Source of the DNA: Mycobacterium sp.
GTDB taxonomy: Bacteria; Actinomycetota; Actinomycetes; Mycobacteriales; Mycobacteriaceae
Direction of reading: 5' to 3'
DNA length: 32,284 nucleotides
NCBI GenBank assembly: GCA_020438865.1
Contig: JAGQTU010000047.1
Coordinates: 1-32,284, forward strand
The notes under the pieces are model-generated. The model ran no database searches and was not told where the DNA came from. It saw only the letters and a program-made list of their open reading frames with translations. Shown here piece after piece: positions 12,923 to 16,828 of this stretch. Every line of letters starts with the position of its first letter. The first letter of the stretch is position 1. Position numbers and translations under genes: made by a program.

Positions 12923-12934
12923 AGACACATGTCC
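12923..12934. promoter_or_regulatory. Operator-like site AGACACATGTCC (copy 1, MMP operon)
   Basis: Exact reverse complement of 16817-16828 upstream of the TetR gene. The core GACA-CA-TGTC is an inverted repeat with a 2-bp spacer. It lies 2 bp after the candidate -10 of the MMP operon, so a bound repressor would block initiation. The same region serves the divergent MBL gene. Confidence 0.7.
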
Positions 12935-13001
12935 AGAAAGCTCGCCGCGAACATCAGGTCAGTTGCACGATGACATCCGCGGTCCCGGCGGGGGCGTGAG
13001 C

Positions 13002-14273
13002 ATGAGAATTGCTTTGCTGTCCTACCGGAGCAAGACCCATTGTGGCGGGCAGGGCGTCTACGTGCGTCATCTGAGCCGCGGTCTGGTCGAGCTCGGTCAC
13101 GATGTCGAGGTCTTCTCCGGCCAGCCGTATCCCGAGATCCTCGATCGCCGGGTCCGGCTCACCGAGGTGCCCAGCCTCGACCTCTACCGCGAGCCCGACC
13201 CGTTCCGGGTGCCGCGGCCCAGCGAGATCCGCGACCGCATCGACCTGCTGGAACTGGCGACGATGTGGACCTCGGGATTCCCCGAACCGCGCACGTTCAG
13301 CCTGCGCGCCGCACGACTGCTCGCGCAGCGCCGCGACGAGTTCGACGTGGTCCACGACAACCAGTGCCTGGGCACCGGCCTGCTGCGCATCGCCGCGAAC
13401 GGCCTGCCCGTCGTCGCCACCGTGCACCACCCCATCACCCGGGACCGAGTGCTGGACCTGGCCGCCGCGAAGTGGTGGCGAAAGCCATTGGTGCACAGAT
13501 GGTATGGGTTCGCGCAGATGCAGAAGAAGGTCGCGCGCAGCATCCCCGACCTGCTCACGGTGTCATCGTCATCGGCCACCGACATCGCCGATGACTTCGG
13601 CGTCAGCCCCGACCAGTTGCGGGTGGTGCCCCTCGGCGTCGACACCGAGTTGTTCAAACCGCATGACCAGCCCCGGGTTCCGGGGCGGATCATCGCGATC
13701 TCGAGCGCCGACCGGCCGCTCAAGGGCATCGGGCACCTGCTGCAGGCCGTCGCCAACCTGCGCGGTGAGCACGACGTGGAATTGCAGTTGGTCGCCAAGC
13801 TCGAGCCGAACGGTCCGACCGAAAAGCTGATCGCCGAACTCGGTATCTCCGATATCGTGCACACCTCCAGCGGTCTGTCCGACGCCGAACTCGCCCTGCT
13901 GTTCGCGTCGGCGGAGATCGCCTGCATCCCATCGCTGTACGAGGGGTTCTCGCTGCCCGCCGTCGAGGCCATGGCCAGTGGCACACCGATCGTCGCCAGC
14001 CGGGCCGGTGCGCTGCCCGAGGTGCTGGGCCCCGACGGCGAATGCGCCGACCTGGTGGCGCCCGGCGACGTCGGCGAGCTGACCCATGCGCTGGACCGGC
14101 TGCTGTCCTCCCCCGAACGCCGGCACTGGCTGGGCACCGCCGGCCGGCGTCGCGCGCTCGACGTGTTCAGCTGGGAGTCGGTGGCCGCGCAGACCGTGCG
14201 GGTCTACGAGCAGGCCATCGCCCGCACCGGCCGGGTGCGCAACACGATCGAAGCGGTCGACGAGCCGTGCTGA
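13002..14273 (+). CDS. manT: GT4 glycosyltransferase, probable MMP alpha-1,4-mannosyltransferase ManT
   Basis: 423 residues with the GT-B fold of family GT4. The N-terminal domain begins MRIALLSYRSKTHCGGQGVY (glycine-rich acceptor-side loop), and the C-terminal domain has the nucleotide-sugar motif with the two glutamates of the EX7E signature at ~314 and ~322 (YEGFSLPAVEAMASG). A GT4 enzyme next to two methyltransferases and an alpha/alpha-toroid protein matches the MMP cluster described in nontuberculous mycobacteria, in which ManT adds mannose from GDP-mannose to the growing 3-O-methylmannan in the cytoplasm. The role is therefore assigned from family plus context. The stop overlaps the next gene's GTG start by 7 nt. 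Confidence 0.8.
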   Translation: MRIALLSYRSKTHCGGQGVYVRHLSRGLVELGHDVEVFSGQPYPEILDRRVRLTEVPSLDLYREPDPFRVPRPSEIRDRIDLLELATMWTSGFPEPRTFSLRAARLLAQRRDEFDVVHDNQCLGTGLLRIAANGLPVVATVHHPITRDRVLDLAAAKWWRKPLVHRWYGFAQMQKKVARSIPDLLTVSSSSATDIADDFGVSPDQLRVVPLGVDTELFKPHDQPRVPGRIIAISSADRPLKGIGHLLQAVANLRGEHDVELQLVAKLEPNGPTEKLIAELGISDIVHTSSGLSDAELALLFASAEIACIPSLYEGFSLPAVEAMASGTPIVASRAGALPEVLGPDGECADLVAPGDVGELTHALDRLLSSPERRHWLGTAGRRRALDVFSWESVAAQTVRVYEQAIARTGRVRNTIEAVDEPC

Positions 14274-14998
14274 CCGTCGACTACGACCGGCTGCGGGTCG
14301 GACCCGGCAGCACGGTGATCGACGTCGGCTGTGGCGCGGGCCGGCACAGTTTCGAGGCCTACCGCCGGGGCGCCAACGTGATCGCCTTCGACCAGGACGC
14401 CGAGGAGCTGGCCAACGTCGACACCATGCTGCAGGCGATGGGCGAGGCCGGTGAGGCGCCGGAGTCGGCCAAGGCCCAGGTGGTCGTGGGTGACGCGCTG
14501 GCCCTGCCCTATCCCGACGGCAGCTTCGACACCGTGATCGCCTCGGAGATCCTCGAGCACATCCCCGACGACGACGGCGTCATCACCGAACTGATCCGGG
14601 TGCTGCGACCGGGCGGCACGCTTGCCGTCACGGTGCCGCGCTGGCTTCCGGAGAAGATCTGCTGGCTGCTCTCCGACGACTACCACGCCAACGAAGGTGG
14701 CCACATCCGCATCTACAAGGCCGGCGAACTGCGCGCCAAGCTGATCGCCGGCGGACTGCGGTTCACCCACTCCGAATACGCACACGGGTTGCATTCACCG
14801 TTCTGGTGGCTCAAATGCGCTGTGGGCGTGGAGAAACCGGAGCATCCCGCGGTGCAGGCCTACCACAAGCTGCTGGTCTGGGACATGATGTCGCGACCCG
14901 CAATCACCCGGGTCGCCGAAGCCGCACTCAACCCGCTCGTCGGCAAGAGCGTCGCCCTGTACTTCGAGAAGCCGGACTCCGATGGCCCGGCGATCTGA
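14267..14998 (+). CDS. meT3: Class I SAM methyltransferase, probable MMP 3-O-methyltransferase MeT3
   Basis: 243 residues with a clear Methyltransf_11-type Rossmann domain: motif I VIDVGCGAGRHSFEA, acidic loop IAFDQDAEEL, VVVGDALALPYPDGSFD and ASEILEHIPDD, then LRPGGTLAVTVPRW. The C-terminal ~90 residues (KICWLLSDDYHANEGGHIRI onward) are family-specific. The gene starts with GTG inside the end of the GT4 gene (7-nt overlap) and overlaps the next gene by 17 nt, a tight operon. By context it should methylate O-3 of mannose in MMP. Which of the two methyltransferases of the cluster is MeT3 and which MeT1 is inferred from fold type and gene order, so the label is less certain than the family. Confidence 0.75.
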   Translation: MLTVDYDRLRVGPGSTVIDVGCGAGRHSFEAYRRGANVIAFDQDAEELANVDTMLQAMGEAGEAPESAKAQVVVGDALALPYPDGSFDTVIASEILEHIPDDDGVITELIRVLRPGGTLAVTVPRWLPEKICWLLSDDYHANEGGHIRIYKAGELRAKLIAGGLRFTHSEYAHGLHSPFWWLKCAVGVEKPEHPAVQAYHKLLVWDMMSRPAITRVAEAALNPLVGKSVALYFEKPDSDGPAI

Positions 14999-16058
14999 CC
15001 TCGACGGAGTCCCCGGCGTCGCCGGTGTCCTGACCCCCGCGCAGTGCCGCCAGACGGCGGAATCGATTGCCGCCCTGCAGCTGCCGTCCGGCGAGATCCC
15101 GTGGTCACAGACCGGGCACACCGATGTCTGGGACCACGTGGAATGCGCGATGGCGCTCTCCGTCGCCGGTCTGACCGAATCCGCCCGGGCCGCCTACGAC
15201 TGGTGCCGCACCGAACAGCGCGCCGACGGCTCGTGGCCGATCCAGTACCGCCGCGGTGTGATCGAGGACCACAACAGCGACAGCAACTTCTGCGCCTACA
15301 TCGCCACCGGGGTGTGGCACCACGTGCTGGTCACCGGTGACCGCCGGTTCGGCGAACGGATGTGGCCGACCGTCCGCGCCGCCATCGAGTTCGTCTTGGA
15401 CCTACAGGCGACTACCGGTGAGATCTATTGGGCGCAAAGCCCTTCCGGGGTCCTGCCCGAGGCGCTGCTGACGGGATGCGCCAGCGTCTATCACAGCATC
15501 CGCTGCGCGCTGGCCCTTGCCGACGACGTCGACGACCCCCAGCCCGAATGGGAGGTCGCGTTGGGCCGGCTCGGTCACGCGATCGCCGAGCACTCCGAGG
15601 CGTTCACCGAGAAGCCGCACCATTCGATGGATTGGTACTACCCCATTCTCGCTGGCGCACTGCGCGGTTCGGCGGCCGGCGCGCGGATCACCGAGCGGTG
15701 GGACGAGTTCGTGGTCGACGGTCTGGGCATCCGCTGTGTCAACGACCGGCCCTGGGTGACCGGGGCGGAGACCTGCGAGTTCGTCATGGCACTGGACGCG
15801 ATCGGCGAACGCGACCACGCCCTGAACCAGTTCAGCGCGATGCAGCACCTACGCGAAGCGGACGGCTCGTACTGGACCGGGCTGGTGTTCGCCGACGGCA
15901 AGCGCTGGCCGGTGGAACGCACGACCTGGACGGGTGCCGCCGTCATCCTCGCCGCCGACGCCCTGTCGGCGACCACCGGCGGCAGTGGCATCTTCCGCGG
16001 CGCCGAACTCCCCCGCGGCCTCGAGGCCGACTACGACTGTGAATGCGTCAGGAACTGA
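14982..16058 (+). CDS. mmpH: Alpha/alpha-toroid protein, probable MMP endomannosidase MmpH
   Basis: 358 residues, all-helical, with repeated Q/D-G-x-W turns ([46 protein letters not shown]). Such turns lead automatic annotation to call it prenyltransferase or squalene-cyclase-like, but they are general to (alpha/alpha) barrels and I see no terpene-cyclase DxDD motif. Acidic and aromatic residues suited to a glycoside hydrolase are conserved-looking in [15 protein letters not shown] and [16 protein letters not shown]. In the published MMP cluster the equivalent gene encodes MmpH, an endo-acting hydrolase that cuts mature MMP into primers for new chains. The start overlaps the methyltransferase by 17 nt and the end overlaps the convergent MeT1 gene by 11 nt. 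Confidence 0.72.
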
Positions 16059-16740: not shown

Positions 16741-16746
16741 GCCCCG

Positions 16747-16752
16747 AACATA
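16747..16752 (-). promoter_or_regulatory. Candidate -10 element of meT1 (leaderless)
   Basis: TATGTT on the minus strand with six bases to the ATG at 16740. No Shine-Dalgarno sequence is visible. It lies 64 bp from the shared operator at 16817-16828. Confidence 0.45.
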
Positions 16753-16816
16753 GCCTGCCCGCGCCGCCGATGGCCAGCGCGCGCCTTGCCCGCCCCGGGG
16801 CGTTGTAGTAGCGTCC

Positions 16817-16828
16817 GGACATGTGTCT
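16817..16828. promoter_or_regulatory. Operator-like site GGACATGTGTCT (copy 2, TetR/meT1 region)
   Basis: Exact reverse complement of 12923-12934. It contains GACA-TG-TGTC as inverted repeat and partly overlaps a second dyad, GTCCGGAC at 16813-16820. It covers the likely transcription start and the GTG start codon of the TetR gene, the expected position of an autorepressor site. Confidence 0.7.

Follow-up and report, generated by a model that had tools for sequence, protein, structure and literature searches.

A conserved operator-like palindrome at the methylmannose polysaccharide genes of Mycobacterium, predicted to be shared by paralogous TetR-family regulators

Contig JAGQTU010000047.1 of Mycobacterium sp. 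(GCA_020438865.1), a stretch of 32,284 nt analysed as a whole (hereafter the window, whose positions are used as coordinates), carries the methylmannose polysaccharide (MMP) genes manT, meT3, mmpH and meT1 together with a gene for a TetR-family regulator, here called A. A 12-bp palindrome lies directly behind the -10 element of the manT-meT3-mmpH operon and again at the start of the A gene, and by prediction it is very probably an operator. We consider it probable that this single operator is shared by a small group of TetR paralogs, with A acting on itself and on the manT operon, a second paralog (B) acting on a regulon of its own, and B, possibly together with a third paralog (C), acting on manT where A is missing. 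The genome of the window is 90.9% complete and divided into 366 contigs. It was compared with a genus set of 60 genomes, its own included, and with a named set, the best 80 of 318 relatives that a scan of named genomes gave. Some species are represented in both sets, which are therefore not independent.

A preliminary description of this DNA had noted that AGACACATGTCC at 12923-12934 is the exact reverse complement of GGACATGTGTCT at 16817-16828, with one copy behind the -10 TATAGT of the manT operon and the other over the TetR start, and both the sequences and their placement were confirmed. The dyad RGACANNTGTCY occurs in the window at these two places only, compared to a mean of 0.10 in 100 dinucleotide shuffles, none of which contained two or more. 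With three mismatches to the 12-mer allowed, 15 matches were found against 23.08 expected, and this lack of enrichment indicates that only the exact dyad carries signal. The two promoters have the same geometry, in which the -10 element is followed by 2 bp and the dyad (TATAGT-CT-site and TAGCGT-CC-site), and the TetR-side copy includes the GTG start codon (16823-16825). A genome-wide scan, proposed earlier as a check, gave three sites for RGACAYRTGTCY and none for the reversed control in the window's own genome, and eight sites for RGACANNTGTCY against two for the control. Besides the two places in the window, RGACAYRTGTCY covers the GTG start of that genome's nearest TetR paralog. Summed over the 60 genus genomes, RGACAYRTGTCY occurs at 200 sites and the reversed control at 52. 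Another RGACANNTGTCY site of the window's genome (L263:140-151, contig G000:C10) lies ~30 bp ahead of a gene for an FAD-binding protein, counted from its mechanically called start, and marks a possible further target. Within the manT operator itself, an ATG begins a frame of 14 codons (12929-12973), which ends before manT.

The site upstream of manT is conserved throughout the genus. An orthologue of manT (at least 78% identity) was found in 49 of the 60 genus genomes, own included, and all 49 have GACANNTGTC within the 260 bp upstream of it, as searched with any two central bases. The site reads GGACAAGTGTCC in genomes G023 and G033, and in locus L075 it lies more than 200 bp upstream. All 80 named loci likewise have GACANNTGTC within the 320 bp searched upstream of manT; one of them, L163, is titled as a Bifidobacterium breve metagenome bin, perhaps through a binning error. 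Aligned by their sites, the 80 named 120-mers comprised 79 distinct sequences; the -10 element and the site stood out, and the CAG bases flanking the search pattern on the outside were 97-100% conserved. The conservation that the preliminary description had suggested examining was therefore found in both sets. Outside the genus, 21 manT loci were examined among 67 other-genus genomes with a match, and in 20 of these no site was found up to 320 bp from the homology-placed manT start, the exception being L262 with GGACACTTGTCC.

A chance pair of short palindromes could be proposed, as the dyad has just eight fixed bases and the genome has eight RGACANNTGTCY sites against two for the control; the shuffle expectation for the window speaks against this, and conservation in 49/49 and 80/80 loci refutes it, leaving it practically no probability. 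It is very improbable that the element is instead a promoter or translation feature, that is, a conserved start region with a leaderless upstream open reading frame (uORF). The ATG in the manT site is followed by short frames beginning MSR or MSS in the loci sampled, but in these 12 of the 80 loci the frames range from 8 to 34 codons and the peptide is unconserved past its first residues. Furthermore, the upstream half GACA is equally conserved, and TetR paralogs carry this dyad at their starts as well.

Regulator A belongs to the TetR family by its helix-turn-helix domain (TetR_N, PF00440, E 5.4e-13) and scores 26.6 bits with TetR_C_20, for which the cut-off is 26.5. At a threshold of at least 68% identity it is present in 33 of the 60 genus genomes, comprising 33 of the 49 with manT and none of the 11 without (Fisher p 3.8e-5, uncorrected for ancestry). 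Its start codon carries GACANNTGTC in all 47 A-bearing loci of the named set, a conserved palindrome at which binding is predicted. In the genus set 32 of 33 A genes have the site at their start, and the start codon is GTG (ATG in G044); in G002 the site at the A start reads GAACACGTGTCC. The right half of this site is partly coding (GTG TCC/T, Met-Ser) and the left half is noncoding. Conservation at both manT and the TetR start is how an operator would behave, and A is likely, on this comparative evidence, to be an autorepressor and a repressor of manT-meT3-mmpH.

However, A is not found everywhere the site is found. Among the 49 manT genomes, 33 have A and 15 (each at least 98% complete) lack it, while G025 (80% complete, with the contig cut) was placed in neither class. 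All 15 A-less genomes keep the manT site, so A cannot be its sole regulator. In the named set, where presence of A was judged from the locus alone, 47 loci have A, 28 have no A although their sequence continues for 3.7 kb or more past manT, and 5 end too early to tell. On a ManT tree, three changes are needed to account for the absence of A among the determined named rows. The A-less named loci include those of M. paraense, M. colombiense, M. simulans, M. europaeum, M. scrofulaceum and M. bohemicum, which we take to be slow growers; A is kept in M. fragae, M. kyorinense and Mycolicibacillus trivialis. In the A-less locus L181 (3529-8675), the MMP cluster adjoins genes for fur, a katG-like peroxidase and a GMC oxidoreductase (as assigned by Pfam) and not the metallo-beta-lactamase (MBL) and aminotransferase neighbours of the window, and L184 and L216, also A-less, have similar neighbours (fur, katG-like peroxidase) as judged by the start of their sequences.

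The A-less manT genomes contain B in 15 of 15 cases and C in 14 of 15. In two of them (G017 and G058), GGACANNTGTCC occurs at three places genome-wide, namely at manT and twice at B, and the other 13 have four to nine such places each, some away from TetR genes. G023 has B and neither A nor C. In light of these genomes, it appears unlikely that A is the sole protein acting on the two sites, as repressor of its own gene and of the manT operon, with B having no action on manT: the 15 A-less genomes retain the site, and all have B, whose own sites share the motif. In favour of such a role for A alone are its physical linkage and its occurrence only together with manT, as well as G002, which has A and no match to B or C and keeps the manT site. 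The preliminary description had proposed that the TetR protein represses itself and the manT operon; conserved sites at both and the restriction of A to manT genomes lend support to this, except that A would not be acting alone.

B was matched in 56 of the 60 genus genomes (E 1e-50), and in each of the 21 B loci fetched GACANNTGTC occurs at the start codon and a second time 120-160 bp upstream. Within the TetR subfamily with GGACANNTGTCC, a start codon carrying GACANNTGTC is thus common to A (47/47 named loci) and B (21/21 fetched loci). The segment that we take, from TetR structure, to be the recognition helix reads ATAYTYF in both A and B, and ASAYTYF in C. In the window's genome, B and an aldehyde dehydrogenase gene (TIGR04284 aldehy_Rv0768, 948.8 bits against a cut-off of 775) are arranged divergently, and a P450 gene follows B. 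The published neighbourhood of Rv0767c consists of cyp51, rv0765c, cyp123, rv0767c and aldA (PMC10198500, PMC10470581). By its neighbourhood (aldA of the Rv0768 type and P450), the feature compared here, B is the presumed Rv0767c orthologue. A was rejected as the Rv0767c orthologue, because it forms a clade separate from B (SH-aLRT 100) and coexists with B in 32 of the 33 A-bearing genomes. The tree sampled the clades A, B, C and D, and B forms one clade except for a basal B-like row (L113). On that contig (G005:C257) an A gene and the basal B-like TetR gene lie within ~7 kb of each other, which may bear on the origin of the paralogs. Members of the more distant TetR group D (L149, L150, L151) have two GGACANNTGTCC sites ~140 bp apart, one of them over the ATG start.

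C (at least 70% identity) is present in 16 of the 60 genomes: the 14 A-less manT genomes already mentioned, G056, which has A, and G010, which has no manT. The site at the C start is a variant, GGAC(G/C/T)(G/A)GTGTC, with an altered left half in 14 of 16 loci (L134-L148, L152); a GACANNTGTC site, mostly CTGGACAGCTGTC, lies nearby in 9 of the 16, and the other 7 have none in the stretch examined. Several observations weigh against the shared-operator reading in the form that we prefer. C tracks the absence of A, and the manT site scored higher with the C matrix than with the B matrix in 41 of 49 promoters, including 27 of 32 whose locus contains A (means 22.4 for C and 17.2 for B) and 14 of 17 whose locus does not (22.4 and 21.6). 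An unrelated regulator could use the manT site in A-less genomes. The manT promoters are related by descent, besides the overlap in species between the genus and named sets, and it is from position alone that repression, as opposed to activation, is suggested.

A rival reading is that the manT operator of A-less slow growers is served by C instead of B. In its favour are the matrix scores just given, the occurrence of C in 14 of 15 A-less manT genomes and in 1 of 33 A-bearing ones, and the flank TCTGGACA, which is common to manT sites and the upstream sites of C. Against this, G023 has no C and still has the site as GGACAAGTGTCC, G010 has C without manT, and the start site of C is altered and its GACANNTGTC sites incomplete in distribution, as given above. 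Because the two matrices come from few sites (42 for B and 23 for C) in related genomes, and because raw scores cannot be compared between matrices, we read the matrix comparison as giving no separation between B and C. Service of the manT operator by C in place of B seems to us improbable, but C remains a real candidate for manT in slow growers.

Under the preferred reading of one operator and several paralogs, a dimer of A would bind the GACA-N2-TGTC dyad directly behind the -10 element of its own promoter and of the manT-meT3-mmpH promoter. The A transcript would be leaderless, with its start codon inside the operator. A repressor on these sites would presumably cover the expected transcription start, and bound A would block RNA polymerase until a ligand released it. 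The unlinked B would use the same operator to repress itself together with the divergent aldehyde dehydrogenase (Rv0768 type) and P450 genes. In genomes that lack A, which belong chiefly to one slow-growing clade, B, possibly with C, would keep manT controlled; with A and B both present, the two would probably either share the manT operator or compete for it. Ligand placement by homology gave no result, since the 36 PDB matches to A are weak and the best, 3he0, is another TetR protein; a lipid, sterol-CoA or aldehyde is our guess from a weak resemblance to KstR and from the neighbours of B.

Two further targets had been proposed for the TetR protein, meT1 and, more cautiously, the MBL hydrolase. 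The site was searched within 250 bp upstream of meT1 in 129 loci of both sets, of which 50 have no A in the locus (including unclassified loci and one with A on another contig). Of the 79 loci with A, 77 have it at a distance of 34 to 159 bp from the gene. Among those with no A in the locus, meT1 was identified in 42, and none of these 42 has the site. This indicates that the site near meT1 belongs to the promoter of A; meT1 is accordingly unsupported as a conserved target. In the window, 76 bp separate the site from the meT1 start, with meT1's own leaderless-type -10-like element, TATGTT, in between, ahead of its ATG, and the site may affect meT1 where the distance is short. The MBL gene is near manT only in L064-L069, the six closest of 48 genus loci (E 1e-20), and so falls outside the conserved regulon. 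Taken together, the original observation of an operator pair is real and stronger than was claimed for it; its interpretation holds for the operator and probably for A, gives an incomplete account of the regulator, and reaches too far in including meT1 and MBL.

The features of the region are listed in Table 1. The genes manT, mmpH and meT1 are homologous to solved enzymes, and meT3 is assigned by its domain and gene order alone. The chain matched by ManT, 7qsg, is deposited as a D-inositol 3-phosphate glycosyltransferase, and the name manT is taken from the gene order and PMC9883506. Neighbouring manT, meT3 and mmpH genes were also seen in other genera of the family (L242-L262).

Table 1. Promoter elements, predicted operators and genes of the MMP region (positions in the window).
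Feature	Position	Strand	Basis
-35-like TTGCGA, manT operon promoter, 17-bp spacer	12892-12897	+	Read from sequence; TTGC 74-97% per base in the 80-promoter profile
-10 TATAGT, manT operon promoter	12915-12920	+	Each base at least 91% in 80 named promoters
Predicted operator AGACACATGTCC, 2 bp past -10, over expected transcription start	12923-12934	.	Sequence, shuffles, conservation
manT, MMP alpha-(1->4)-mannosyltransferase, first operon gene	13002-14273	+	Pfam glycosyltransferase domains; solved chain 7qsg, E 2.7e-213
meT3, putative 3-O-methyltransferase	14270-14998	+	Methyltransf_11; order as in PMC9883506
mmpH, MMP endomannosidase	14982-16058	+	Solved MmpH 7qsj, E 8.4e-185
meT1, 1-O-methyltransferase, divergent from TetR	16048-16740	-	Methyltransf_24; solved chain 6g7d, E 7.5e-103
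-35-like TTGCCC, TetR promoter, 17-bp spacer	16786-16791	+	Read from sequence
-10-like TAGCGT, TetR promoter	16809-16814	+	Sequence; consensus GtTGTAGTAGcGTCC in 47 A loci
Predicted operator GGACATGTGTCT, 2 bp past -10, GTG of TetR inside	16817-16828	.	Sequence; GACANNTGTC there in 47/47 named A-bearing loci
TetR-family regulator A, 190 aa, candidate MMP-linked repressor	16823-17395	+	TetR_N; TetR_C_20; own clade

KstR, the TetR repressor of cholesterol catabolism, is the best NCBIfam match of A and is among its 36 PDB matches (residues 24-188), both matches being weak. A was rejected as a KstR, as it scores 44.9 bits with the equivalog NF033703, whose cut-off is 280, and the KstR operator presumably differs from the 12-mer. 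The MMP genes were defined as manT-meT3-mmpH-meT1 in PMC9883506, which reports MMP in M. avium and the cluster in M. smegmatis mc2 155; the window has the same four genes, and solved chains match its ManT, MmpH and MeT1. The main text of that paper contains neither operon, promoter or transcriptional regulator nor the word stem regulat. No described regulator of MMP synthesis was found in the open-licence literature, as far as its accessible text goes, including for MMP in combination with TetR.

Among the closest described systems is that of G155_05115, the Rv0767c orthologue of Mycobacterium sp. VKM Ac-1817D. In that strain a palindromic motif X was reported at 14 operons, 12 of which were raised more than 3-fold by phytosterol; the motif is similar to the predicted Rv0767c site and was also reported close to the G155_05115 start and at two other TetR genes (PMC6593523). 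A TetR gene with a palindrome near its own start codon is the arrangement seen here, with B as the counterpart by neighbourhood. Judging from B's own sites, motif X would be the same motif as the 12-mer, the motif letters being absent from the text of the paper. The 14 operons are mostly phytosterol-responsive, and the main text of the paper is without the terms glycosyl, methyltransferase and mannos. From sequence comparison, the shared operator is best read as a link between MMP synthesis and the Rv0767c/aldA/P450 ("motif X") regulon. More tentatively, and with somewhat less than even confidence, we suggest that MMP synthesis across the genus belongs to a lipid-, sterol- or aldehyde-responsive regulon in which TetR paralogs share one operator, A serving in most species and B where A is missing. 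The operator would then have outlived its local regulator because a paralog reads it, and MMP output would be tied to aldehyde, P450 and sterol oxidation.

With a precise conserved operator and named candidate regulators, the regulation of MMP becomes directly testable, and the genomes in which A is absent and the site retained represent a natural experiment on the mutual replacement of paralogous repressors with one operator. As in typical divergent mycobacterial TetR regulators, the palindromes lie near the regulator gene and near neighbouring genes for metabolic enzymes (PMC4482099, where Rv0767c is among the less significant motifs, 1.2e-14). The present case differs from those regulators in that one operator is common to unlinked paralogs and is kept even in that part of the genus which lacks the regulator. 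The circuit is in kind an ordinary TetR autorepressor circuit, and its unusual feature is that a shared operator remains in genomes without the linked regulator.

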